Below, in pieces: positions 1-51,321 of a DNA stretch of 64,000 bases. The stretch covers positions 1 through 64,000 of the forward strand of contig NZ_JANKBZ010000020.1 in the NCBI RefSeq assembly GCF_024623785.1. The letters are read 5' to 3'. The notes beneath the pieces are model-generated. The model searched no databases. It was not told where the DNA came from and saw only the letters and a program-made list of their open reading frames with translations. The position numbers and the translations under genes were made by a program. The stretch comes from Archangium lipolyticum (lineage in GTDB: Bacteria; Myxococcota; Myxococcia; Myxococcales; Myxococcaceae). The first letter of the stretch is position 1, and each line of letters starts with the position of its first letter.

Positions 1-113
1 ACTACCAGGCCATTCCCATGATGCCCGAAGACACGCTTCTGCCCTTGATGGCTCGATTCGTTGAATTGCTGGCCGAACAACCCGTTTTCCGGGAAGTTTT
101 CGGTCCAATATGA
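1..113 (+). CDS. C-terminal end of an upstream protein (partial)
   Basis: A reading frame entering from the left edge (first full codon at base 3) ends at TGA 111-113. It encodes about 36 residues ending ...EVFGPI. The visible tail is helical-looking and Leu-rich, with no motif I recognise. The next gene starts four bases after the stop (TGA GGGG ATG), so the two are probably co-transcribed. Only the tail is present and no function can be assigned. Confidence 0.55.
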   Translation, partial: YQAIPMMPEDTLLPLMARFVELLAEQPVFREVFGPI

Positions 114-117
114 GGGG

Positions 118-483
118 ATGGCTCAGGTTGGGGACAGCAGCACGGCTTTGTTCCCCGATTGGGAGAAGCGCAAGTCCGTCCCCGTGAAGGATGGCGCCTT
201 CTCGCTCGAGTTGGGGGGGGCCTGGTTGGTGGGTGAGGATCCCGTGGGCCGGGGTGGGCGAGTCGTGTTGCCAGACGGCACGCGGCTCTTCGGGCAGCTC
301 TGCATTGGGGAGAAGCGTGTTTACGGCCGCATTACCCAGGCCGTCACTCCCGCTGGGGACACGTTCGCCGTCTGCATGGAGTTGTACGACGAAATAGTTC
401 GTGGTGTTGAGAGCGAGCCTGACGGAGGAGCCGTCAAGGTTTGGCCCATCGCGGAGGTGAGAGCGGTGGACCGCTTCGAATAG
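118..483 (+). CDS. Small hypothetical protein of the DUF2381 gene neighbourhood
   Basis: A 121-residue protein starting at ATG 118. An in-frame TTG at 61 would add 19 residues but has no better ribosome site and would overlap the upstream gene. There is no signal peptide or membrane segment. The body looks beta-rich, with alternating hydrophobics around VVLPDGTRLFG and VYGRIT, and an acidic end. I do not recognise a named domain. It lies 120 bases before a DUF2381 gene and follows the upstream stop by four bases. From memory, small proteins of this general look recur beside DUF2381 and kinase genes in myxobacteria, so a role in the same module is a plausible inference. Base composition here looks less GC-rich than the rest of the window. 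Confidence 0.6.
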   Translation: MAQVGDSSTALFPDWEKRKSVPVKDGAFSLELGGAWLVGEDPVGRGGRVVLPDGTRLFGQLCIGEKRVYGRITQAVTPAGDTFAVCMELYDEIVRGVESEPDGGAVKVWPIAEVRAVDRFE

Positions 484-603
484 CACCATCCTGGGTCTTG
501 GCGGATTGGAAGCCCGGACTGGCGCGCGCACGACCGGGCAGGACGGTGTGTTGGAGGCCCACGTCTCCGGTCTCTTCCTCGTTTCCGTGGAGGTTCCCGC
601 TCC

Positions 604-1530
604 GTGTTTGCCCCGTCCTCCATCGCTCTGCTCGGGCTGGCCCTGCTCGCCGCCCCTGCTGATGCCGCCGAGCGGGCTCCGCTCCCTACCTGTGAGACGG
701 GCACGCGCTACATCGAGCTGACGGCGGACGCACCCAGCATGATACCGGAGGTGTGCATCCGGCCAGAGCTGTCCGTCAACCTGTTCTTCGACACCAAACT
801 GGCGCGGGTGGAAGTGGAGGAGCGGGAGCGGTTCCGCCGGGTGGATCTGGCAGCGGCATCTCTGACGCTCGTGGCCTCGGAGGCGCTGCACGATGGAGAG
901 CGCGTACCGGTGACAGTCTACTTCCAGGATGATGCGGTGCCGACGAGTGCCACCTTCGTGCTGGTGGTCCACCCCGCTCATGCGGAGCGGCAGGTGGAGG
1001 TGTCACGCAACGAGCGCACGATGGCCTCCCTCCGGCAGGGCGAGCAGCAGGCGCGAGCCGAGGCCAGGCTTTGCCGAGAGGAGAAGGCGCGTCTTCAGGC
1101 TGAGTGCAGTGATCAGTTGGGGCTCACGAGCCTCATCGTCAACGGATGGCTCGGCAAGACAGGTGTCGTTGCCCGGCTGCTCAAGGAAGTCACCTCGCGC
1201 CCGGGAGGATCGCTCGTCGCGCAGAACGTCATCAGCTACCGGGCCGTTGGGCCCAAAGGGCGGGGCCGGGTGGCCGTGGAGATGGAACTACGCAATCAGG
1301 GAACGGTGGCCTGGACGCCCTCGGGTGCGGCCTTGGTGGGCTCGAATCGCGAGGCGCTGACGGAGCTGACGGTATGGCCCCTGGAGCCCGTCCCACCGGG
1401 CAGATCGCTGAACATCGTGGTGGAACTGGACACTGCGCACAGAGAGGCCCGGGGCACCTACACGCTCAAGCTGTGGGCGGGAGAAGCCGGAACCGAGGGC
1501 GTGAGTCTCGACGGCGTGACGTTCCCGTAG
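604..1530 (+). CDS. DUF2381 (TIGR02268) family secreted protein
   Basis: A 308-residue protein from GTG 604, preceded by a GGAGG-like site about ten bases upstream. Residues 1-21 form a signal peptide (hydrophobic LLGLALLAA core, cleavage after ADA), so the product is exported. The N-terminal half (IPEVCIRPELSVNLFFD, then ARVEVEERERFRRV) matches the myxobacterial paralogous family TIGR02268/DUF2381 as I know it. The function of that family is not established. A charged stretch around residues 140-165 (many E, R, Q) could be a short coiled coil before a second beta-rich domain. It is followed by a hairpin and then by a kinase-like gene, an arrangement that suggests envelope sensing or signalling but proves nothing. 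Confidence 0.85.
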   Translation: MFAPSSIALLGLALLAAPADAAERAPLPTCETGTRYIELTADAPSMIPEVCIRPELSVNLFFDTKLARVEVEERERFRRVDLAAASLTLVASEALHDGERVPVTVYFQDDAVPTSATFVLVVHPAHAERQVEVSRNERTMASLRQGEQQARAEARLCREEKARLQAECSDQLGLTSLIVNGWLGKTGVVARLLKEVTSRPGGSLVAQNVISYRAVGPKGRGRVAVEMELRNQGTVAWTPSGAALVGSNREALTELTVWPLEPVPPGRSLNIVVELDTAHREARGTYTLKLWAGEAGTEGVSLDGVTFP

Positions 1531-1554
1531 ACGGCTCAGTTACAACGTTCGCAT

Positions 1555-1573
1555 CCGTCCAATGGATGGACGG
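1555..1573 (+). terminator. Terminator-like hairpin after the DUF2381 gene
   Basis: CCGTCCA (1555-1561) pairs perfectly with TGGACGG (1567-1573) across a five-base loop, 25 bases after the DUF2381 stop. There is no U-tract, so termination efficiency is uncertain. Confidence 0.4.
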
Positions 1574-1602
1574 CGCTGGGTCGATTCGGCTCTTCTGCTC
1601 CA

Positions 1603-1629
1603 ACAGGTCGAGTCAGGGAATTGACCTGT
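1603..1629. repeat. Inverted repeat upstream of the pseudokinase gene
   Basis: ACAGGTC (1603-1609) and GACCTGT (1623-1629) are perfect 7-bp arms separated by 13 bases, about 100 bases before the kinase-like start. The right arm overlaps a TTGACC hexamer (1621-1626) that could serve as a -35 element, although the -10 region is poor. It could be an operator or an RNA hairpin. Confidence 0.3.
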
Positions 1630-1725
1630 CTGGTTGGCTGGTGCTTTCTTTCGACGGTCTCCCGTGTTGCCTCAAAGGAACCCGGTCCTGACGCAGAGAA
1701 CCCGAAAGGTTCAGGAGATGCCCTC

Positions 1726-2895
1726 GTGAAAGGCCCAGCGCGCAACGACAGCTTCCCCATCCAACCCATGGGTCCTGGCGGTCTTCTCTTCGAGGGACCC
1801 GAGTACCGCTACACCTTCTTTGCCCCCCTGCGGGACGGGCATGACCCCCTGGCCATCGCCTGGCGCACCTCCTCGCGGGACGAAAGCATTCCGTGCCTCG
1901 TCATCCTCAAGCGCGTGGAGATGCCGCCCGGGGAAGAGCGCCGCCAGCGGGCCGTGGAGGAGGTGCGGCTCGCCACGCGTCTGCGCCACCCAGGGATCGC
2001 CCAGGTGTACGAGTTGGTGGAGCACCAGGGCACGCCCTACGTGGTGATGGAGCACACCCCGGGACTCTTCCTGGAGACGGCCATGGAGACGGCGCTCTTG
2101 CTGCGCAGGACGCTCGCACCGGCCCATGCCGTCTACATCGCCGCCCAGGTGGCCGACGCGCTCCACTACGCCTGGAACAGCCAGGACGAGGACGGCCGCC
2201 CGCTGCACGTCGTCCACCGGGCGGTGAGCCCCATGAACATCCGGCTGGAGTCCAATGGCCGGGTGAAGCTCACCGACTTCGGCGTGGCGTACTCGCTCCT
2301 GGCGGGCCGGTTGAATACGCCCTCCAAGGTCCTTCGTGCGGAGCTGGCCTACGCCGCCCCCGAGCTGATGCGTTGTCAGAAGCCCGATGGGCGGGCGGAC
2401 CTCTACTCGCTGGGCATGGTGCTGCTGGAGATGCTGTCGGGTCAGTACCCGCTGGATCCGCCGGACGTGAACCCGCCCGCGGGCGAGTCCCCGGAGGTGG
2501 CCCGGTACGACGCCCGTATGCGCGCCGAGCGCCCCTCCTGGACGAGCGCGGGGGTGCTGGCCGACCGCATCCAGACTTTCGGCCCGGAGGACGTGGAGCG
2601 GGTGGCCCGGAAGGTACCCGAGCCGCTCAAACGCATCCTCCACAAGGCGCTGCGAGCCCATCCGGACGACCGCTACCAGAGCGGGGGAGAGATGCGCGAC
2701 GAGCTGTGCGAGTGGCTGCGCGGCCAGGGCAAGCGGTTCGGACGCGCCAGGGCGGCGGCGGAGCTGAGAGCCCTCGTGCGCGAGAAGCCCTCTCCCCAGG
2801 AGACGCGCGCCTTCCCCATCGAGAGAGGCGTGCTGCCCACCCCCGAGGAGGAAGCCACGGCCGAGATTGAAGAGAAGAAGGCCCGGATCGGGTGA
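1726..2895 (+). CDS. Ser/Thr kinase-fold protein, predicted pseudokinase (HRD changed to HRA)
   Basis: GTG 1726 is chosen because AGGAG lies at 1713-1717; a TTG at 1621 would add residues unlike a kinase N-terminus. The 389-residue product has a kinase fold: an ILK lysine near residue 66, the APE-like YAAPEL, and subdomain IX RADLYSLGMVLLEML. The catalytic loop reads HRAVSPMNI. Alanine 166 (GCG, 2221-2223) replaces the catalytic aspartate, while the loop asparagine and DFG (D184) remain. The glycine-rich loop is also degenerate. Loss of the catalytic base normally abolishes phosphotransfer, so this is probably a pseudokinase that binds nucleotide or scaffolds partners. There is no transmembrane segment. 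It follows the DUF2381 gene on the same strand. Confidence 0.85.
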   Translation: MKGPARNDSFPIQPMGPGGLLFEGPEYRYTFFAPLRDGHDPLAIAWRTSSRDESIPCLVILKRVEMPPGEERRQRAVEEVRLATRLRHPGIAQVYELVEHQGTPYVVMEHTPGLFLETAMETALLLRRTLAPAHAVYIAAQVADALHYAWNSQDEDGRPLHVVHRAVSPMNIRLESNGRVKLTDFGVAYSLLAGRLNTPSKVLRAELAYAAPELMRCQKPDGRADLYSLGMVLLEMLSGQYPLDPPDVNPPAGESPEVARYDARMRAERPSWTSAGVLADRIQTFGPEDVERVARKVPEPLKRILHKALRAHPDDRYQSGGEMRDELCEWLRGQGKRFGRARAAAELRALVREKPSPQETRAFPIERGVLPTPEEEATAEIEEKKARIG

Positions 2896-2927
2896 CCCAG
2901 AAGAAGATCACCGGTGGGGTCTGCCTC

Positions 2928-3812
2928 TCACCCCGCGTCTTCCTTCGACCGTGCGCGCACCTCCGACGCGAACAGCTCCGCCGCCGGTGTGCGCGGCGCG
3001 CCCTTGCGCCAGAGGAGCGCCGCGAGCTCGGTTCGCGGTGCCGGGGACAGACGTTTCACCACCAGCCGTTCGGCGTCGGGGAGCCGTGGCTCGGGCAGCA
3101 CGGTGATGGCGAGGCCCGCGCGCACCATCGCGAGCACCGTGGCCACCGCGTTCGACTCGAGCGCGATGTGCGGCGCGAGCCGCATGGCATCGAAGTAGGC
3201 GTCCACTCGCGCGCGGACGCGCAGCCCTCGCGAGAGCAACGCGAATGGCTCGCCCGCGAGCTGCTTCGCCCCCACGGACTCCGCTCCGGCCAGCGGGTGC
3301 CCCCGCGCCACCACGAGCCCCAGCCTGCTGTCGAACACCGGCTCCGTGTCGAGGTCCGGTGAGCGCGCGGGCGAGTACCCCAGCCCCACATCCAGCTTGC
3401 CGTCCGTGAGCCGCCGTTCCACCCGTCTTACCACCGCCTCCTCGGCGCTCAGGGCCAGGCGAGGATGTCTGCGCAGCACGGCGGCCAATGCGGGCACCAC
3501 GACACCGCGCATGCTCGGTGGGTAGCCCACGCGCAGCGTCCCCGTGGCCAGCCCGCGCAGCGCGCTCACCGCCACCCGGCCGGCGTCCACGTCCTCCAGC
3601 GCTCGTGACGCGTACGTGCGGAATAGCTCGCCCGCCTGCGTCAGCCGCACGCCACTGCGCGCCCGTTCGAAGAGCGGCGAGCCGAGCTCCTCCTCGAGCT
3701 GGCGGATCTGCTGCGACAGCGTGGGCTGCGAGACGTGGATGCGCCGCGCGGCGCGTCCGAAATGCAGCGTGTCGGCGACGGCGGAGAAGTAGCGGAGGTG
3801 GCGGAGCTCCAT
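2928..3812 (-). CDS. LysR-family transcriptional regulator
   Basis: 294 residues. The N-terminus MELRHLRYFSAVAD is a classic LysR start, with a winged helix-turn-helix over about residues 1-60 (AARRIHVSQPTLSQQIRQLE). The rest is a periplasmic-binding-protein-like effector domain beginning near TLRVGYPPS. Length is normal for the family. An upstream extension of the frame was rejected because the LysR N-terminus begins exactly here. It is transcribed divergently from the TPP enzyme gene 100 bases away, with a T-N11-A palindrome only ten bases upstream of its own start codon. It most likely represses itself and activates the enzyme pair in response to a metabolite. The inducer is unknown. Confidence 0.93.
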   Translation of the reverse strand: MELRHLRYFSAVADTLHFGRAARRIHVSQPTLSQQIRQLEEELGSPLFERARSGVRLTQAGELFRTYASRALEDVDAGRVAVSALRGLATGTLRVGYPPSMRGVVVPALAAVLRRHPRLALSAEEAVVRRVERRLTDGKLDVGLGYSPARSPDLDTEPVFDSRLGLVVARGHPLAGAESVGAKQLAGEPFALLSRGLRVRARVDAYFDAMRLAPHIALESNAVATVLAMVRAGLAITVLPEPRLPDAERLVVKRLSPAPRTELAALLWRKGAPRTPAAELFASEVRARSKEDAG

Positions 3813-3821
3813 TCCCCCATC

Positions 3822-3836
3822 ATAGGCATTGCCTAT
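3822..3836. promoter_or_regulatory. LysR-type operator (perfect T-N11-A palindrome)
   Basis: ATAGGCATTGCCTAT is a perfect 7-1-7 palindrome containing T-N11-A (T3823, A3835), the LysR recognition signature. Its centre lies about 64 bases upstream of the start point implied by the TAGATT -10 candidate. LysR recognition sites usually sit near -65. It also lies just upstream of the regulator's own start codon. Confidence 0.75.
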
Positions 3837-3857
3837 CGGGTCCATGGGAACAAACGA

Positions 3858-3886
3858 ATGTACCAATCGATGGCGGCGCGTAGATT
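3858..3886 (+). promoter_or_regulatory. Candidate activator-dependent promoter of the TPP enzyme/ALDH pair
   Basis: TAGATT (3881-3886) is a fair -10 element. The hexamer 17 bases upstream (ATGTAC, 3858-3863) is a poor -35, as expected for a LysR-activated promoter. The implied start point near 3893 leaves a leader of about 20 bases containing AAGGAG before ATG 3913. Confidence 0.4.
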
Positions 3887-3912
3887 TCCCCTCGTCTCGA
3901 AGGAGAAATCCC

Positions 3913-5550
3913 ATGAAGGCATCGGATCTGTTCGTCAAAGCGCTCGAAGCGGAGGGCGTGCGTTGCGTCTTCGGTCTTCCCGGCGAGGAGAACCTGGACC
4001 TGCTCGAGTCGTTGCGCGCCTCGGGCGTACGCTTCGTCCTCACGCGCCACGAGCAGGCCGCGGGCTTCATGGCCGCCACCTGGGGCAGGCTCACCGGGCG
4101 CGCGGGCGTGTGCCTCGCCACGCTCGGGCCTGGCGCCACCAACCTCGTCACCGCCGCGGCGTACGCCCAGCTCGGCGCCATGCCCATGGTGATGCTCACC
4201 GGGCAGAAGCCCATCAAGGCCGGCAAGCAGGGCCACTTCCAGATCGTCGACGTCGTGGGGATGATGCGGCCGCTCACCAAGTCCACCCGCACGCTCGTCT
4301 CCGCGGAGCACGTCCCCTCGGCGGTGCGCGAGGCCTTCCGCCGGGCCGAGGAGGAGCGCCCCGGTGCCACCCACCTGGAGCTGCCCGAGGACGTGGCGCG
4401 TGAGTCCTCCGACGCCGTGCCTCTCTCTCCCAGCGCCTACCGCCGGCCCGTGGCCGACGAATCCTCCATCGCCCTGGCCGTCGAGGCCATCGCGTCCGCC
4501 CGCCGCCCGCTGCTCATGATCGGCGCGGGCGCCAACCGCAAGCTCACCTCGGAGATGCTCCGCGTCTTCGTGGACCGCGTGGGGATGCCCTTCTTCAGCA
4601 CCCAGATGGGCAAGGGAGTCGTGGATGAGACCCATCCGCTCTGGATGGGAACGGCGGCGCTCTCGGATGGGGACTTCGTCCACCGGGCCATCGAGGCCTC
4701 GGACTGCATCGTCAACGTGGGCCACGACGTCATCGAGAAGCCGCTGTTCGTCATGCGCGACAAACAGCGCACGGTGGTCCACTTGAACTTCTCGTCCGCC
4801 GAGGTGGACCCCGTGTACTTCCCGCAGGTGGAGGTGACCGGCGACATCGCCAACGCGGTGTGGCGCATCGCGGAGGGGGTCGGCTCGCGCTCCCACTGGG
4901 ACTTCGCGCCCTTCGAGCGCGCCCGCGCCGGGCTCGACGCGCAGCTCGCGCGCGGCATCGATGACGAGCGCTTCCCCATCTACCCCGCGCGGCTCGTCGC
5001 CGAGGTGCGGCGCGCGATGCCGGATGACGGCATCGTGTGTCTGGACAACGGCATGTACAAGCTCTGGTTCGCCCGCTACTACCGCTGCCGTCGGCCCAAC
5101 ACGCTGCTGCTCGACAACGCGCTCGCGACGATGGGGGCGGGGCTCCCGTCCGCCATCGCGGCCAGGCTGGTCCACCCCCGGCGCAAGGTGCTCGCGGTCT
5201 GCGGCGACGGCGGGTTCATGATGAACTCGCAGGAGCTCGAGACGGCGGTGCGCCTGAAGCTGGACTTGACGGTGGTCGTGGTGCGCGACGACGGTTACGG
5301 GATGATTCGCTGGAAGCAGGGGGAGATGGGGCTCCCGGACTTCGGCATGGAGCTGGGCAACCCGGACTTCGTCCGCTACGCGGAGGCGTATGGCGCGCGC
5401 GGGCACCGGCCGGCGAGTGCCTCGGAGTTCGGGGCCACGCTCGCGCGCTGCCTGGAATCCGGCGGAGTGCACGTCATCGACCTGCCCATCGACTACTCGG
5501 ACAACACGCGTGCGCTCGGAGCCGGTGTCGAGGACGGCGCCGCCCGGTGA
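3913..5550 (+). CDS. Thiamine-pyrophosphate enzyme, acetolactate-synthase-like
   Basis: 545 residues from ATG 3913, with AAGGAG eight bases upstream. The three-domain TPP-enzyme layout is present: Pyr domain with the cofactor-activating glutamate E47 (RHEQAAGFMA), central domain, and PP domain with GDG at 431-433. The usual NN that closes the metal/TPP motif reads DD here (residues 459-460, RDDGYGM). The family includes acetolactate synthase, glyoxylate carboligase and 2-oxo-acid decarboxylases. No small regulatory subunit and no other ilv genes are nearby, which argues against a biosynthetic IlvB. With the aldehyde dehydrogenase 33 bases downstream, a likely role is decarboxylating a 2-oxo acid to an aldehyde that is then oxidised. 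The substrate is unknown. Confidence 0.88.
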   Translation: MKASDLFVKALEAEGVRCVFGLPGEENLDLLESLRASGVRFVLTRHEQAAGFMAATWGRLTGRAGVCLATLGPGATNLVTAAAYAQLGAMPMVMLTGQKPIKAGKQGHFQIVDVVGMMRPLTKSTRTLVSAEHVPSAVREAFRRAEEERPGATHLELPEDVARESSDAVPLSPSAYRRPVADESSIALAVEAIASARRPLLMIGAGANRKLTSEMLRVFVDRVGMPFFSTQMGKGVVDETHPLWMGTAALSDGDFVHRAIEASDCIVNVGHDVIEKPLFVMRDKQRTVVHLNFSSAEVDPVYFPQVEVTGDIANAVWRIAEGVGSRSHWDFAPFERARAGLDAQLARGIDDERFPIYPARLVAEVRRAMPDDGIVCLDNGMYKLWFARYYRCRRPNTLLLDNALATMGAGLPSAIAARLVHPRRKVLAVCGDGGFMMNSQELETAVRLKLDLTVVVVRDDGYGMIRWKQGEMGLPDFGMELGNPDFVRYAEAYGARGHRPASASEFGATLARCLESGGVHVIDLPIDYSDNTRALGAGVEDGAAR

Positions 5551-8978: not shown

Positions 8979-10446
8979 GGTGCTCCTCTCCGGCGATCAG
9001 CTTCATGACCTCCGGAAGTCCCGCGCTGGTGAGCTCTCCCACCTTCTTCCGGTCGCGGAAGACGGCGATCCGGTGCGACAGCCGCAGCACCTCCTCCAGC
9101 GCGGCTGAGATGAAGAGGACCGAGAGCCCTTTCCGCGAGAGCTCGTGGATGAGGCGCTCGATCTCTCCCTTCGCGCCCACGTCGATACCGCGGGTCGGCT
9201 CGTCGAGGATCAGCACGCTCGGATCGTAGGCCAGCCACCGGGCGAGGATGACCTTCTGCTGATTGCCTCCACTGAGCAACCGCACGGGCTGCTCGACCGA
9301 GGGCGTCTTGATGCCGAGCTTCGTCACGAACTCCTGGGCGATCCGCTCCTGCTGCGCGCGCGAGACGGTGAAACCCAGCTTGCGCTGCACGACCAGCGCG
9401 ATGTTCTCCCGCACCGACAGGTCCGGGATGATGCCCTCCGCCTTGCGATCCTCGGGGCAGAACGCCAGGCCCCGCTCGATGGCTTGCCGGGGGCTCTTGG
9501 GAACCGCGCCGTTCACCGTGCCGCTCCGCACGCGATCGGCGCCGAAGAGCAGGCGGGCGGCCTCCGTGCGTCCGGAGCCGAGCAGGCCCGCGAACCCGAC
9601 CACCTCGCCCTGGTGCATCGTCAGATCGAACGGAGCGATCCCCTTGCGTGACAGCCCCTGCGCGGCGATGACCGCCGGCCGCGTCTCCTCGCTCCGCGCG
9701 TGGAGCGCCGGCTCCTCGGGGACCTTGCCCAGCATGTGGGAGACGAGGTCGAGCTTCGAGAGCTGGGACGCCTCATACGTCCCGACGAGCGCTCCGTTGC
9801 GCAGGACGGTGATGCGGTCGCTGACCTTGTAGACCTGATCCAGGAAGTGGGTGACGAAGACGATGCCGATTCCCCGCGCCTTCAGCCGCCCGATGATGTC
9901 GAGCAGCAGCTCCGTCTCGTGGCTGTCCAGGCTCGAGGTCGGCTCATCCATGATGATGACCCGCGCATCCGTCTGGACGGCGCGGGCGATCGCCACGAGC
10001 TGCTGGACCGCGGTGGACATGGTCCCCAGCTGCTGGTCGACGTCGACCTTCAGCTCGAAGGTGGCGAGGAGCTCCTCCGCCTTGCGCCGCATGGTGCGCC
10101 AGTCGATGCCGAACCAGCGCCGGGGCGCACGGCCCAGGAAGAGGTTCTCCGCGACCGTCAGGGTCGGGATGAGGTTCACTTCCTGGTAGATGGTGCTGAT
10201 GCCCTTGCGCTGGGCATCTCCCGGTGAGGTGGGGCGGAAGTCCCGCCCCTGGAAGGTGAGCGTCCCCCCGTCGCGCGGGTAGACACCCGTCAGGAGCTTG
10301 ATGAGCGTCGACTTCCCGGCGCCGTTCTGCCCCATCAGGGCATGGACCTCGCCGGCCCTTACATCCAGGTCCACGCCTCGCAGCGCGTGGACCCCGGGGA
10401 AACGCTTCTCCACTCCTCTCGCGACGAGGATCGGCTCAGTACTCAC
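8968..10446 (-). CDS. ytfR: Galactofuranose-type sugar ABC transporter, double ATPase YtfR-like
   Basis: 492 residues with two ATPase domains in tandem, as in RbsA/MglA/YtfR. Domain 1 has Walker A GQNGAGKST near residue 40, the degenerate signature STAVQQLVAIARA and Walker B VIIMDEPTSSL. Domain 2 has a degenerate Walker A (GLLGSGRTEAARLLFG), the canonical signature LSGGNQQKVILARW and Walker B VLILDEPTRGIDVG. This asymmetry is normal for the family. Length is also normal. It energises the two permeases and overlaps both neighbours (11 bases each), showing tight translational coupling. Confidence 0.93.
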   Translation of the reverse strand: MSTEPILVARGVEKRFPGVHALRGVDLDVRAGEVHALMGQNGAGKSTLIKLLTGVYPRDGGTLTFQGRDFRPTSPGDAQRKGISTIYQEVNLIPTLTVAENLFLGRAPRRWFGIDWRTMRRKAEELLATFELKVDVDQQLGTMSTAVQQLVAIARAVQTDARVIIMDEPTSSLDSHETELLLDIIGRLKARGIGIVFVTHFLDQVYKVSDRITVLRNGALVGTYEASQLSKLDLVSHMLGKVPEEPALHARSEETRPAVIAAQGLSRKGIAPFDLTMHQGEVVGFAGLLGSGRTEAARLLFGADRVRSGTVNGAVPKSPRQAIERGLAFCPEDRKAEGIIPDLSVRENIALVVQRKLGFTVSRAQQERIAQEFVTKLGIKTPSVEQPVRLLSGGNQQKVILARWLAYDPSVLILDEPTRGIDVGAKGEIERLIHELSRKGLSVLFISAALEEVLRLSHRIAVFRDRKKVGELTSAGLPEVMKLIAGEEHHES

Positions 10447-11422
10447 GGGTGCTGATCACCTGGGCGGCGGTGGACTGCTCGAAGAGCTGGTCCTTGCTCT
10501 GGATGAACTTCGGAACCTTCTCGCCCGCCTTCACCTTGGTGATGGTGTCGAAGACGATCGGGCCCATCAGCGGGTTGCACTCGACGGTGGCGTTGAGCTT
10601 GCCCGCGACCATCGCCTCGAAGGCCCCCTTCACGCCGTCGATGGAGATCAGCGTGACGTCCTTGCCCGGGTTCATGCCGGCCTCCTCGAGCGCCTGGATG
10701 GCCCCGAGCGCCATGTCGTCGTTGTGCGCGTAGACAGCCTGGATCTTCTCGCGGTCCGACTTGATGAAGGCCTCCATGACCTCCTTGCCCTTGGCGCGGG
10801 TGAAGTCGGCGCTCTGGCTCTTGATGATGGTCATCTCGGGGTACTTCTTGAGCGCCTCCTCGAAGCCCTTCTTGCGATCGATCGCCGGGGCGGCGCCGGT
10901 GGTGCCCTGCAGCTCGAAGATGTTGGCCTTGCCATTCGTCTTCTTCGCGAGCCACTCGGCCGCCATCCGGCCCTCCTCCACGAAGTCGCTGGCGATCAGC
11001 GTGGTGTAGAGGCTCTCGTCGCTCACCTTGATGCCGCGGTCCACGAGGATGACCGGGATGTTGGCCTCCTTGGCCTGCATCAGCACGGACTCCCAGCCGG
11101 TCTCCACGACCGGGGCGAGCACGATGGCGTCCACCTTCTGCGCGATGAAGGAGGTGAGGGCGTTGATCTGGTTGGCCTGCTTGCCCTGCGCGTCCGCGAA
11201 CTTCAGCTCGACGCCGCGCTTCTCGGCCTCGCCCCGGATGGACTTCGTCTCGGCGGTGCGCCAGGCGCTCTCCGCTCCCACCTGGGAGAACCCGATGACG
11301 AGCTTCTTGGCGGCGGCGGGAGCGCCCGCGCCGGCTCCCTCGGCGGCTTGCTGCTGCTTCTCCGAAGGTTGCTGCTTACATCCGACCAGCGCGAACAGGG
11401 CAACCGCGATCAACCATCTCAT
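10436..11422 (-). CDS. ytfQ: Galactofuranose-type sugar ABC transporter, substrate-binding lipoprotein YtfQ-like
   Basis: 328 residues from ATG 11422, preceded by GGAGAG six bases upstream; a GTG four codons earlier lies inside that ribosome site. The start MRWLIAVALFALVGC is a lipoprotein signal with cysteine at residue 15, followed by a Gln/Ala-rich linker. The mature part is a type-I periplasmic sugar-binding fold (LVIGFSQVGAESAWRTAET, VDAIVLAPVVETGWESVL, VYAHNDDMALGAIQALEEAG). The SQVGAESAWRTAE segment is the one I associate with YtfQ. It captures the sugar outside the inner membrane. The preceding GH43 gene ends 32 bases upstream, so hydrolase and importer are probably one operon. Confidence 0.87.
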   Translation of the reverse strand: MRWLIAVALFALVGCKQQPSEKQQQAAEGAGAGAPAAAKKLVIGFSQVGAESAWRTAETKSIRGEAEKRGVELKFADAQGKQANQINALTSFIAQKVDAIVLAPVVETGWESVLMQAKEANIPVILVDRGIKVSDESLYTTLIASDFVEEGRMAAEWLAKKTNGKANIFELQGTTGAAPAIDRKKGFEEALKKYPEMTIIKSQSADFTRAKGKEVMEAFIKSDREKIQAVYAHNDDMALGAIQALEEAGMNPGKDVTLISIDGVKGAFEAMVAGKLNATVECNPLMGPIVFDTITKVKAGEKVPKFIQSKDQLFEQSTAAQVISTREY

Positions 11423-47480: not shown

Positions 47481-49466
47481 GTGTCGATCGAAACCTACGG
47501 CAACTACCAGCTCATCAAGCGGCTCGCCATGGGCGGCATGGCGCAGATCTATCTCGCGCGCCAGCGGGGGCCCGAGGGCTTCGAGAAGCTGCTGGTCGTC
47601 AAGCGCATCCTCCCGCACCTGGCGGAGAACGAGGACTTCGTCCGGATGTTCCTGGACGAGGCGCGCATCGCCGCCCGGCTCAACCACCCCAACATCGTCC
47701 AGATCTTCAACCTGGGGGCGCAGGACGACAGCTTCTTCATCGCCATGGAGTACATCCATGGTGAGGATTTGCGGCGGGTGTGGAAGCGCGCCGAGCGCAG
47801 CGGGCAGCTCATCCCGGTGCCGCTGGTGTGCCGCGTCATCATCGAGGCCTGTGCCGGCCTGGACTACGCGCACAAGAAGACGGACGCCAACAACAAGCCG
47901 CTGGGCATCGTCCACCGGGACATCTCCCCGCAGAACATCCTGGTGACGTTCGAGGGGCGGGTGAAGGTGGTGGACTTCGGCATCGCCAAGGCGGCGGACC
48001 AGGCCACCGTCACGCGCTCGGGGGTGCTCAAGGGCAAGTACTCGTACATGTCGCCGGAGCAGGCGGCGGGGCAGAAGCTGGACCGCCGCAGCGACATCTT
48101 CGCCCTGGGCGTGGTGCTCTACGAGCTGCTCACCGGCACGCGCCTCTTCAAGCGCCCGAGCGACATGTCCACGCTTCAGGCGGTGGCCGAGTGCAAGATC
48201 CTGCCGCCCTCCCAGGTGAACTCGCGCGTCCCGGCGCACCTGGATCCCATCGTCATGAAGGCGCTGACGCGGGAGCCGGCGGACCGGTACTCGGAGGCGG
48301 TGCAGCTACAGCTCGCGTTGGAGGACTGGCTCGTCGCCCACCAGCTGCCGTCGTCCTCGGCGCATGTGGCGGCCTTCATGCAGGACCTCTACGCGGCGAG
48401 GCTGGCCGAGGAGGCCCGGCTGGGCGACGTGCTGGTGGAGGAGGCCGAGATCCTCTCGGGAGGCTACAAGGCGGTCGAGAAGTCCGGCGCCGAGACGATG
48501 GCGGCGCCACGCTCGCGGGAGGAGGCGAGCGCGCGCAACGGGGACGATCCCGCCCGGACCCAGCCCCTGGAGTCCTCGGACCAGTTCGGGACGGGGCGCC
48601 TACCGGCCCGGGCTTCCCGGAGCGAGTCGCGCGGCTCCTCGGAGCGCAAGGCGCTGGAGCCCCGGCGCACCGTGGACATCCGCCGGGCCCCGGCCCCCGA
48701 GCCCGGGGAGGAGCCGCCGCGCTCCACTCCCTCCGAGAAGCCAGCGGTGCGCTCGAGCCGGGCGAAGCAGCCGGCCGTGCCTCCACGCCGGAAGTCGAGA
48801 CGGCTCGCCGTGGTGGGAGTGGTGGCGGGGGTGGTGGTGGGTCTGGGCCTGGGCGCCTGGTGGGCCCTGAGCTCCGCGCCCGCCCCGGAGACCCGGCCCG
48901 CGACGGCGCAGCGCCCGGTGGAGCCAGCTCCGTCTCCGCGCGAGGCGCCGAAGCCGGCCGTGGCCGCGTCCGTGACGCTCACCCTGCGGACGAAGCCCGA
49001 GCAGGTGACCCTGACGGTGGATGGCAAGCCGCTCGAGAAGGGCCAGGGGGTGGTGTCGGCCACGCCTGGACAGGAGCTGAGCCTTCTGGCGGAGGCACCA
49101 CGTCACCGCCCGCTCTCCAAGACGGTGCGGGTGGGGGAGGGGCCCACGCAGGAGGTGGTGCTGGAGCTCGAGCCCCTGGCCGAGGCTCCCCGCGAGGAGC
49201 ACAAGCCGGAGCCCGTCCGGTCCACGGTGGCCGCGGTGGAGCGCCCGTCCTCGCAGGAGACGCGCCGGGGCTCGGTGCGCTTCGCGGTCACTCCGTGGGC
49301 CGAGGTGGCTTGCGGTGGGCGCAACCTGGGGACGACCCCGCTGCCGGATGTGCAACTGCCCGCCGGCGTGTACGAATGCAAGTTCTCGAACCCGGAGATG
49401 GGGACGCGCACCCAGCGGGTCGAGGTGAAGCCCAACACCCACACACGGGTGCTGGTGAAGTTCTAG
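47481..49466 (+). CDS. Ser/Thr protein kinase with C-terminal PEGA-like domain
   Basis: 661 residues from GTG 47481 (no strong ribosome site). The kinase domain (about 8-275) is complete: LAMGGMAQIYLARQ, VVKRIL, HRDISPQNIL, VVDFGIAKA, GKYSYMSPEQAAG, RSDIFALGVVLYELLTG. A disordered Pro/Ser/Arg-rich linker (about 340-435) leads to one membrane segment (LAVVGVVAGVVVGLGLGAWW, about 437-457). Outside lie two beta domains; the last (RRGSVRFAVTPWAEVACGGRNLGTTPLPDV, read in parts) is PEGA-like, a fold thought to bind envelope components. It is likely a transmembrane kinase sensing the cell surface. A second kinase of the same design begins 23 bases downstream. Confidence 0.93.
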   Translation: MSIETYGNYQLIKRLAMGGMAQIYLARQRGPEGFEKLLVVKRILPHLAENEDFVRMFLDEARIAARLNHPNIVQIFNLGAQDDSFFIAMEYIHGEDLRRVWKRAERSGQLIPVPLVCRVIIEACAGLDYAHKKTDANNKPLGIVHRDISPQNILVTFEGRVKVVDFGIAKAADQATVTRSGVLKGKYSYMSPEQAAGQKLDRRSDIFALGVVLYELLTGTRLFKRPSDMSTLQAVAECKILPPSQVNSRVPAHLDPIVMKALTREPADRYSEAVQLQLALEDWLVAHQLPSSSAHVAAFMQDLYAARLAEEARLGDVLVEEAEILSGGYKAVEKSGAETMAAPRSREEASARNGDDPARTQPLESSDQFGTGRLPARASRSESRGSSERKALEPRRTVDIRRAPAPEPGEEPPRSTPSEKPAVRSSRAKQPAVPPRRKSRRLAVVGVVAGVVVGLGLGAWWALSSAPAPETRPATAQRPVEPAPSPREAPKPAVAASVTLTLRTKPEQVTLTVDGKPLEKGQGVVSATPGQELSLLAEAPRHRPLSKTVRVGEGPTQEVVLELEPLAEAPREEHKPEPVRSTVAAVERPSSQETRRGSVRFAVTPWAEVACGGRNLGTTPLPDVQLPAGVYECKFSNPEMGTRTQRVEVKPNTHTRVLVKF

Positions 49467-49488: not shown

Positions 49489-51321
49489 TTGACTCTCGAA
49501 GCAGGCACCCCCATCGGCAAGTACGTCATCAAGCGCAAGCTCGCCGAGGGCGGGATGGCGGAGATCTACCTCGCCGCCTCCACGGGGCCCGAGGGCTTCG
49601 AGAAGGAAGTCGTCATCAAGCGGGTGCGCTCGTTCCTGGCGGATGACGAGGGCTTCGTGCGGATGTTCATCGAGGAGGCGCGGCTGGCCTCGCGGCTCAA
49701 CCACGCCAACGTGGTGCAGATCTTCGACTTCGACAAGCACGAGGACTCGTACTACCTGGCGATGGAGTACGTGCGCGGCTGCTCGCTGTGGGACCTGCGC
49801 AAGCGCTGCCGTGAGAAGGGCGTGGCCGTGCCTCCGGTGCTGGTGGCGCACATCGGCGCGCAGGTGGCGGCCGGGTTGCACTACGCGCACCGCCTCAAGG
49901 GCGCGGACGGGGAGTCGCTGCACCTGGTGCACCGCGATGTCACCCCGCACAACGTGCTGCTGTCGCTCGACGGCGCGGTGAAGCTCACCGACTTCGGCAT
50001 CGCCAAGGCGGGCAACAAGCTGACCCAGCCGGGCGTGCTCAAGGGCAAGTTCGCGTACATGTCCCCGGAGCAGGCGCGCGGCGAGGCGGTGGACGCGCGC
50101 ACGGACGTCTTCGCGCTCGGCGTGGTGCTCTGGGAGATGCTCACCGGAGGCCGGCTGTTCGACGGGGACTCGGAGCTCGCCGTGCTCCGGGCGGTCCAGG
50201 AGAGCGTCATCGCCTCGCCGGCCCGCCTCAACCCGGAAGTGCCGGAGGAGCTGGACGAGGTGGTGGCCATCGCGCTCGAGCGCGATCCGGAGGCCCGCTT
50301 CCAGTCGGCCGGCGAGCTGGAGCGCGCCCTGGCCCAGTGCGTGCTGAGCCATGCCCGGAGCGTGGACGACACGGACGTGGGCACCTTCGTGCGGCGGCTC
50401 CTCGACGCGCCCCTCACGCAGTTCATCCAGATGCCGGCCTCGCTGATGGATCGCTCGCAGCGGAGCGCGCGCCTACGGAGCCGCACGGGTGAGACGCCCT
50501 CCGCGGCGGACTCCACCGTTCCGCGGGCGTCCGTCCAGCGCGAGTCCACCGCGGTGTTGACTCCCACGGGCGCGGCCTCGGGGCGCAGCAGGTCCGTACG
50601 CGCCCCCCCGCCCGAGGACTCCCTGGTCTCGGCGTCCACCCAGGTGCTGTCTCGCGACGCCGAGAGGGTCGCGGAGACCCGGGCCGCTCCCTCCGAGGCT
50701 CCCGCTCCCGCGTCGAATCCCGCCGCCCCCCCGCGGATGGCCCAGACGCTGCCCGCGGTCACCTCTACGCAGGAAGCCCCTCCGGCGAAGCGCGGGGGCA
50801 AGGGACTCTGGGTGGGAGCGAGCGTGGGAGCCCTGGTGCTCATCGGCGGTGTGGTGGCCCTGGTGTTTCCGAAGCAGTCGGCGCCCCCGGCCCCGGCCGC
50901 GGGTCCCACCGTCACGGCGACTCCCTCCGCCCAGAAGGAGCCCGTCCCCGGGCCCGAGGTGAAGCCCGAGGCCGCCACACCACCTTCTTCCGATGCTGGT
51001 GCCGTGGTGGCCGTGGCGCCGCCGGCCGAGCCTCCTCCGGCCCAGGCGACGGGAGCCACGGGACAGAACCCGCCGCCGCCGGAGCCGCCCGCCGCGCCCG
51101 TCGCCCAGGCCAGGGGGACCCTCACCGTCCTGGTCACCCCGTACGCCGACGTCTACCTGGACAACAAACTCCTCAAGAAGGAAGTGCAGGGACGCGCCAG
51201 CTTCCAGGTGACGCCGGGCAACCATGTGCTCACTTTCAAGCACCCGGCCAGCACCGAGGCGGTGAGCTTCACCCTCGAGCCTGGTGGCAAGGTGATGAAG
51301 ACCTTCCGCGTCCGCCGGTAG
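49489..51321 (+). CDS. Ser/Thr protein kinase with C-terminal PEGA-like domain (second of a tandem pair)
   Basis: 610 residues from TTG 49489, an uncommon start codon with no clear ribosome site, so expression may be coupled to the upstream kinase. The kinase domain (about 10-275) is intact: LAEGGMAEIYLAAS, VIKRVR, HRDVTPHNVL, LTDFGIAKAG, GKFAYMSPEQARG, RTDVFALGVVLWEML. A Pro/Ala/Ser-rich linker follows, with a membrane segment at about 442-465 (GLWVGASVGALVLIGGVVALVF). The C-terminal PEGA-like part (ARGTLTVLVTPYADVYLDNKLL) faces out. The first 280 residues are clearly paralogous to the upstream kinase, whereas the linkers differ. A MerR-type regulator follows. Confidence 0.93.
   Translation: MTLEAGTPIGKYVIKRKLAEGGMAEIYLAASTGPEGFEKEVVIKRVRSFLADDEGFVRMFIEEARLASRLNHANVVQIFDFDKHEDSYYLAMEYVRGCSLWDLRKRCREKGVAVPPVLVAHIGAQVAAGLHYAHRLKGADGESLHLVHRDVTPHNVLLSLDGAVKLTDFGIAKAGNKLTQPGVLKGKFAYMSPEQARGEAVDARTDVFALGVVLWEMLTGGRLFDGDSELAVLRAVQESVIASPARLNPEVPEELDEVVAIALERDPEARFQSAGELERALAQCVLSHARSVDDTDVGTFVRRLLDAPLTQFIQMPASLMDRSQRSARLRSRTGETPSAADSTVPRASVQRESTAVLTPTGAASGRSRSVRAPPPEDSLVSASTQVLSRDAERVAETRAAPSEAPAPASNPAAPPRMAQTLPAVTSTQEAPPAKRGGKGLWVGASVGALVLIGGVVALVFPKQSAPPAPAAGPTVTATPSAQKEPVPGPEVKPEAATPPSSDAGAVVAVAPPAEPPPAQATGATGQNPPPPEPPAAPVAQARGTLTVLVTPYADVYLDNKLLKKEVQGRASFQVTPGNHVLTFKHPASTEAVSFTLEPGGKVMKTFRVRR

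Follow-up and report, generated by a model that had tools for sequence, protein, structure and literature searches.

Remnant of an insertion-split receptor kinase gene beside a DUF2381 protein and a predicted pseudokinase in Archangium lipolyticum, with predicted folds suggesting type IV secretion core proteins

Three kinds of described protein come closest to the genes treated here. The PknB/PASTA transmembrane (TM) receptor kinases share with them the plan of a kinase domain, a TM segment and an extracytoplasmic sensor domain. In type IV secretion systems (T4SS), VirB10 spans from the inner to the outer membrane and bears a two-helix antenna at its apex (excerpts of PMC9371333). The bacterial pseudokinase families ActPs1-3, GLW, CP1, DYD and DLHK have a Hanks-type fold with loss of catalytic residues (excerpts of PMC12599244). 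The locus in question lies at the start of contig C20 (NZ_JANKBZ010000020.1) in the 12.6 Mb genome of Archangium lipolyticum, assembly GCF_024623785.1; the window is the whole stretch analysed, positions 1 to 64,000. It holds the 3' remnant of a kinase gene, a DUF2381 gene and a kinase-fold gene in which the catalytic HRD motif reads HRA. The account we favour, with rather better than even confidence, is that of a damaged copy of a receptor-kinase module, in which a T4SS core-complex-like envelope sensor would be combined with a pseudokinase and XRE regulators as cytoplasmic output; the contact, the signal and the output are putative. It rests on the observed order of the genes, on the catalytic residues kept or lost, on purifying selection, on the predicted folds and on an insertion sequence (IS) with a duplicated target. 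The features of the locus are as follows.

1-126, + strand: right end of an IS (DDE_Tnp_1 transposase); 1-114 are the transposase C-terminus, and the boundary is at 126
127-135, no strand: 9-bp target-site duplication, GTTGGGGAC
127-483, + strand: 3' remnant (last ~118 codons) of a transmembrane Ser/Thr kinase gene, with a predicted VirB10-like C-terminal domain
604-1530, + strand: DUF2381 / TIGR02268 protein, with a predicted VirB9-like N domain (model residues 29-137), an Ig-like C domain and, by eye, a signal-like N-terminus
1726-2895, + strand: predicted pseudokinase (HRA); a GTG start at 1726 is suggested by relatives
2221-2223, + strand: GCG, Ala replacing the catalytic Asp of HRD
2275-2283, + strand: DFG motif, retained

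In an intact module, a kinase that keeps its catalytic residues would continue through a TM helix and a Pro-rich stretch into a VirB10-like C-terminal domain (the tail), and would be accompanied by a VirB9-like DUF2381 protein that is predicted to be exported. A subset of modules would also include a soluble HRA pseudokinase and one to three Cro/CI-type helix-turn-helix (HTH) regulators. The first-pass annotation had proposed an envelope-linked signalling module made of a small protein (118-483), the DUF2381 protein and a pseudokinase. A conserved pseudokinase beside DUF2381 in a plausible module is borne out, and the small protein drops out as a component. That reading did not include the active TM kinase partner, which is present at 31 of this genome's 39 DUF2381 places, nor the XRE regulators or the folds resembling T4SS proteins.

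The supposed small protein is the end of an IS joined to the 3' end of an interrupted TM kinase gene. Window bases 1-126 are 99% identical to a complete IS copy elsewhere (L266), which encodes a 401-aa DDE transposase (PF01609, E 2.1e-9). The first ~126 bases recur at no fewer than ten further places in the genome, nine at 99-100% and one at 90% identity, and each of nine other IS copies compared departs from the window directly after base 126. Contig C73 terminates in the left end of such an IS, 93% identical to the L266 copy. The 9 bp GTTGGGGAC precede that left end on C73 (L277) and follow the IS in the window, which is the pattern of a target-site duplication. The remainder of the kinase gene is found at C73:4495-6165, matching residues 2-369 and 379-582 of an intact relative (L157), and window 169-477 matches residues 587-691 of the same relative at 65% identity. 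The 121-aa small protein has 26 matches in the genome, all of which except the window itself lie within longer open frames; of seven such frames checked, six are Ser/Thr kinases and the seventh (L092) is a tail only. An independent small-protein gene is ruled out, since its ATG at 118 sits inside the IS, the rest of the gene is on C73 and the 9 bp are duplicated. On the sequence evidence, the kinase gene of the window is cut in two by a mobile element. Since the active kinase is split, this copy of the module is probably broken, and silent or decoupled; it has neither a continuous TM kinase nor adjacent XRE genes.

In principle the window copy could still be functional if the VirB10-like domain were made as a separate small protein from the ATG in the IS end. 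The frame is open from 118, the tail has a dN/dS of 0.27-0.44, and two more DUF2381 places in this genome have a tail only. However, no signal peptide or transmembrane segment is visible by eye, and the dN/dS would mostly reflect the time before the insertion; such a protein is very improbable.

At the nearest orthologous locus (L156, G006:C1:8438500-8453500; 9296-10753) the TM kinase domain is also lost, at a different breakpoint, and the DUF2381 and HRA kinase genes are open. Another module, at L188 (9296-12752), has its TM kinase open frame in two parts ~1.2 kb apart. The right end of the IS is found at both ends of contig C56 (L271, L275). Since eight of the ten further copies listed are at contig ends, this IS probably causes several of the assembly breaks.

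The identity of the DUF2381 gene is clear from its profile scores (PF09544, E 7e-35, 121.2 bits against a cut-off of 29.2; TIGR02268, E 1.2e-66, 225 bits against 76.15), and its N-terminus is hydrophobic by eye. Of 195 genomes of the phylum, 78 have DUF2381; none of 14 control genomes does. The window protein finds 39 DUF2381 places in its own genome, a minimum, as the Pfam profile finds more. A TM kinase lies within 400 bases on the same strand at 31 of them (25 upstream, 6 downstream); of the remainder, three have a tail only, four have neither and one is degraded, its DUF2381 not being found again by the profile. Among the 29 named loci, which come from the DUF2381-alignment search, 26 have a TM kinase within 400 bases, two a tail only and one neither, and 14 have a kinase of the window type. 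HRD and the loop Asn are retained in all 101 TM-kinase rows, the Asp of DFG, DYG or DFS likewise in 101, and the Lys in 99; these rows include A. lansinium repeats and a few frames of TM-kinase type without DUF2381. Judged by these residues, DUF2381 is usually paired directly with a transmembrane kinase that looks active. A hydrophobic TM stretch is present in 76 of 87 rows with kinase and tail, and in all 87 Pro makes up at least 10% (mean 16%) of the 80 residues that follow the segment of highest hydrophobicity.

Mirror-tree distances between DUF2381, tail and kinase over 83 loci (L087 and L156 excluded) correlate with r of 0.70-0.78 (0 of 2000 permutations). As co-inheritance predicts such a correlation, it is not evidence of contact. 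L244 and the second, partial DUF2381 of L234 were excluded from A2, and L238-L244 from A3. At L206 (1678-11068) a single HRA kinase is flanked by two DUF2381-TM kinase modules on opposite strands.

The kinase tail and DUF2381 each resemble, in their predicted folds, one of two interacting halves of the T4SS core complex. The AlphaFold model of the tail (window 127-480 with 22 relatives) has a pLDDT of 87.6 and a pTM of 0.80. Its ten leading Foldseek rows are all VirB10-type chains from T4SS core complexes (E 3e-3 to 2e-2), with no match at E<=0.001. In VIA, entries from T4SS core complexes fill the first 14 places (Z 6.6-11.2), after which Z drops to 3.5 at an unrelated entry; the highest score is that of X. 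citri VirB10 (Z 11.2, rmsd 3.0 over 105). We take the chains in these 14 entries to be of VirB10, CagY, DotG, TraB or ComB10 type. Sequence support for the tail is weak: Transposon_TraM is found in 6 of 23 members (best E 0.0039) and TrbI in the window tail at E 0.052, below the Pfam cut-off (13.8 against 35 bits). These comparisons suggest that the tail folds like the C-terminal domain of VirB10/CagY/DotG. For DUF2381, modelled with 28 relatives at a pLDDT of 82.1, the top five Foldseek matches are Dot/Icm, X. citri and R388 chains (DotH/VirB9/TrwF; E 3e-9 to 3e-7), and unrelated folds follow from 5e-4. The top eight in VIA are all of VirB9/CagX/DotH/TraK type (Z 10.7-13.1), and five of these superpose the N domain (residues ~29-142) at 2.1-2.7 Å over 95-103 residues. 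The N domain of DUF2381 is thereby suggested to fold like VirB9/CagX/DotH.

Each protein also has features of its own relative to its T4SS counterpart. The TM kinase shares with VirB10/TrbI/CagY/DotG the predicted tail fold and the order of cytoplasmic part, TM segment, Pro-rich stretch and beta domain, whereas its cytoplasmic part is a Ser/Thr kinase, its Pfam score is below the cut-off, its model lacks antenna helices and its genome has no VirB4 family match. DUF2381 shares with VirB9/CagX/DotH the predicted fold of the N domain and a gene position next to a VirB10-like partner, whereas it has no match to the sequence family, a generic Ig-like C domain, an alignment over both domains only at large rmsd and no T4SS genes among ten flanking proteins. 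The A. lipolyticum genome has no match to PF03135 (VirB4), PF03743 (TrbI) or PF03524 (CagX), profiles that matched in control genomes (Caulobacter for VirB4), and ten flanking proteins from five module loci include no T4SS component; these results rule out DUF2381 as part of a resident conventional T4SS.

The kinase-fold protein next to DUF2381 has the residue pattern of a pseudokinase. Its fold is assigned by Pfam Pkinase (E 3.6e-26), and it has no strongly hydrophobic segment. The catalytic loop is HRAVSPMNI (2215-2241), with GCG (Ala, 2221-2223) where the Asp of HRD is expected; the loop Asn (2236-2238), the DFG motif, the beta-3 Lys and the alpha-C Glu are retained. The Gly-rich loop is degenerate, FFAPLRDGHDPLAI standing in place of GxGxxG. 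The Ala codon, the retained DFG and Asn and the degenerate glycine loop had all been read correctly in the first-pass annotation. A kinase fold with loss of at least one of Lys, HRD-Asp and DFG-Asp defines a Hanks-type pseudokinase in excerpts of PMC12599244, and the window protein combines a profile-supported kinase fold with loss of the HRD-Asp.

This substitution is shared by many relatives. The kinase collection comes from 96 genomes of the family searched with the window kinase, from which 60 stretches were fetched (the best matches and a hand-picked weaker sample); together with own-genome and named loci they give 85 kinase rows, or 82 once three repeats are removed. These repeats are the A. 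lansinium named loci L229, L235 and L237, which duplicate L198, L194 and L173; they are excluded from the tree, the linked/unlinked residue count and the XRE count and included, as named loci, in the tallies of 50 HRA and 101 TM-kinase rows. A further kinase of the same genome (L037, C1:928816, 37% identity, the seventh-best) is outside the alignment and has HRD, Ser for Asn, and DFG. The tree places all 47 HRA rows (43 loci) in a single clade with an SH-aLRT of 100 (quick method), which rules out a loss of the catalytic Asp in a single strain. All 50 HRA rows, repeats included, have Ala at this position, encoded by GCC in 40, GCG in 7 and GCT in 3; the same Ala in three different codons rules out a sequencing error at 2221-2223. 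Across the 47 rows the Lys is kept in 42, the Glu in 46, the Asn in 2 and the DFG-Asp in 11. The window copy is among the least degraded of the clade, since most others have lost both Asn and DFG-Asp. L185, L188, L192 and L193 each carry an additional HRA kinase of lower score immediately upstream of the first, with Lys changed to Leu, Thr and Arg in one each.

An HRA kinase might still work, by non-canonical phosphotransfer or other ATP-dependent chemistry of the kind given for SidJ or SelO in excerpts of PMC12599244. The frequent retention of Lys and Glu speaks for such activity, as do DFG and Asn in the window copy, but the Asn is gone in 45 of 47 rows and the DFG-Asp in 36, and the glycine loop is degenerate; we consider it improbable.

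DUF2381 lies within 6 kb on the same strand for 44 of the 47 HRA rows, the others being L158 (no partner), L164 (TM kinase only) and the second copy in L188. The dN/dS of the window kinase against nine relatives is 0.26-0.50, and that of L157 against L089 is 0.17. Being well below 1 in the tested pairs, these ratios place the HRA pseudokinase clade under purifying selection. Decay of the pseudokinase into a functionless relic would suit the IS-split partner kinase in the window and the missing TM kinase domain at L156, but with so many HRA copies, these dN/dS values and linkage to XRE and DUF2381 across genera it has very little probability.

Loss of catalytic residues in DUF2381-linked kinases is not confined to the HRA form. 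Outside the HRA clade, linked kinases often show a K to R change, alone or together with Asn to His/Arg, or a DFG motif altered to HFG or NFT. At least one of Lys, HRD-Asp, Asn and DFG-Asp is lost in 62 of 64 rows linked to a TM kinase or DUF2381 versus 3 of 18 unlinked rows; the linked rows that keep all four are L201 and L212. Of the 14 linked kinases in the named set, which is anchored on DUF2381, 11 (from Myxococcus, Citreicoccus and Pyxidicoccus) retain HRD, and each of these 11 has lost another key residue: K to R is found in ten, together with Asn to His/Arg in eight and with DFG to HFG in two, and the eleventh has only DFG to HFG. The first-pass proposal to align linked kinases at HRD therefore has a mixed outcome, with Ala in all 47 rows of the window clade and HRD in most of the named set.

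The third recurrent component is a set of Cro/CI-type regulators. HTH_3 genes, mostly one to three, lie between the pseudokinase and the TM kinase or just past the pseudokinase. Of 61 loci where the kinase is accompanied by a TM kinase, tail or DUF2381 on either strand, 57 have XRE genes within 2.2 kb of the kinase; of 17 kinase loci with none of these partners, one has them, namely L158, itself HRA. Five frames in the gaps were compared with Pfam; four are HTH_3 and one (L166) has no match. The window, with no XRE gene found in its first 8 kb, is one of the four linked loci that lack them.

Several observations weigh against the favoured account. Fold likeness alone does not establish function. 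The DUF2381 model has a low pTM (0.49), three of its eight best VIA matches span both domains at an rmsd of 11.9-20.2 with the domains placed differently, and its C domain (residues 200-308) resembles many generic Ig-like folds (Z up to 9.3). None of 29 DUF2381 members matches Pfam CagX at E<=1. The tail model has no helix of four or more residues, and the two-helix antenna of VirB10 seems to be missing. Tail and DUF2381 profiles compared with PDB sequences give nothing credible, the best being a coiled-coil vimentin (E 0.57) and a fatty-acid-binding protein (E 0.69). A window-type kinase is present at only 6 of the 39 own-genome DUF2381 places, and the pseudokinase is therefore not essential to the module; it is an accessory, usually accompanied by Cro/CI-type regulators. 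The kinase collection was selected by similarity to the window kinase, and residue loss set against linkage gives three phylogenetically independent contrasts, not significant and of low power. Since related rows are not independent, the association of catalytic-residue loss with linkage is only suggestive. L158 (6847-8031) combines an HRA kinase with XRE genes, and the 15 kb fetched there contain neither a TM kinase nor DUF2381.

The fold observations bear above all on an alternative in which the likeness to VirB9 and VirB10 is that of small beta domains only, and DUF2381 is an ordinary periplasmic ligand-binding regulator of the neighbouring receptor kinase. The generic Ig-like matches, the lack of a Pfam or PDB sequence match to CagX, a tail without antenna helices and tail Foldseek E values of 3e-3 and up all suit it. 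Against it stand two neighbours that independently match, as their top hits, the two interacting halves of the same machine, and a Pro-rich transmembrane layout resembling VirB10; we regard it as unlikely.

In the favoured module, DUF2381 would dock on the VirB10-like domain in the way that VirB9 binds VirB10, and this pair would sense an envelope or extracellular signal, which the Pro-rich linker would pass to the cytoplasmic kinase. The pseudokinase may be a non-catalytic allosteric partner, a substrate or an adaptor linking the kinase with the HTH regulators; calling it a scaffold, as the first-pass annotation did, is a guess. More broadly, and tentatively, at a confidence short of even, myxobacteria may have turned the outer-membrane core complex of a T4SS into a family of trans-envelope receptor kinases with dozens of paralogues per genome. 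The VirB10-like kinase and VirB9-like DUF2381 would form a sensor from the inner to the outer membrane, and a subset of modules would add an output switch made of Cro/CI-type repressors and a companion kinase that has been inactivated repeatedly. If so, DUF2381 gains a partner and an identity in structural terms, the unusual size of the myxobacterial kinase set is partly explained, parts of a secretion machine prove to be reused for signalling, and paralogous modules become available for genetic tests of pseudokinase function.

Compared with the PknB/PASTA kinases, the sensor of the module would instead be VirB10-like, with a probably exported VirB9-like partner, and NCBIfam PASTA-kinase scores are far below the cut-off. 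Among the pseudokinase families defined in excerpts of PMC12599244, GLW has GLW for HRD, DLHK keeps the HRD Asp and ActPs2 has Asn for it, whereas the window has HRA. The linked COG3899 domain of CP1, as given there, is absent, and the only Pfam families matched by the window protein are kinase families. Unlike the families of those excerpts, the HRA kinases mostly keep the beta-3 Lys, are soluble, carry no extra domain and are linked to the VirB10-like kinase, DUF2381 and XRE genes. The text of that review has no word starting with 'myxococc' or 'myxobacter'. Myxobacterial pseudokinases as such are already known. The source cited for those of Myxococcus xanthus is Perez 2008. Excerpts of PMC6791715 give 99 Ser/Thr kinases for M. 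xanthus, 11 of them pseudokinases. These share the Hanks-type fold and residue loss with the HRA kinases; they are compared here as a count only, and an overlap with the clade is possible. The literature search returned no paper naming DUF2381 or TIGR02268, and, among the matches listed, none of the titles and abstract starts mentions a fusion of a kinase with VirB10.

At both L182 (4398-5615) and L089 (8650-9777) the module is directly bordered by a gene for a DUF932 protein. In the window, the pseudokinase is followed on its 3' side by a convergent gene of LysR-type look by eye, and a tRNA scan of 1-4000 found none. Two adjacent long open frames with kinase matches at 47481-49466 and 49489-51321, both on the + strand, are tandem Ser/Thr kinases.

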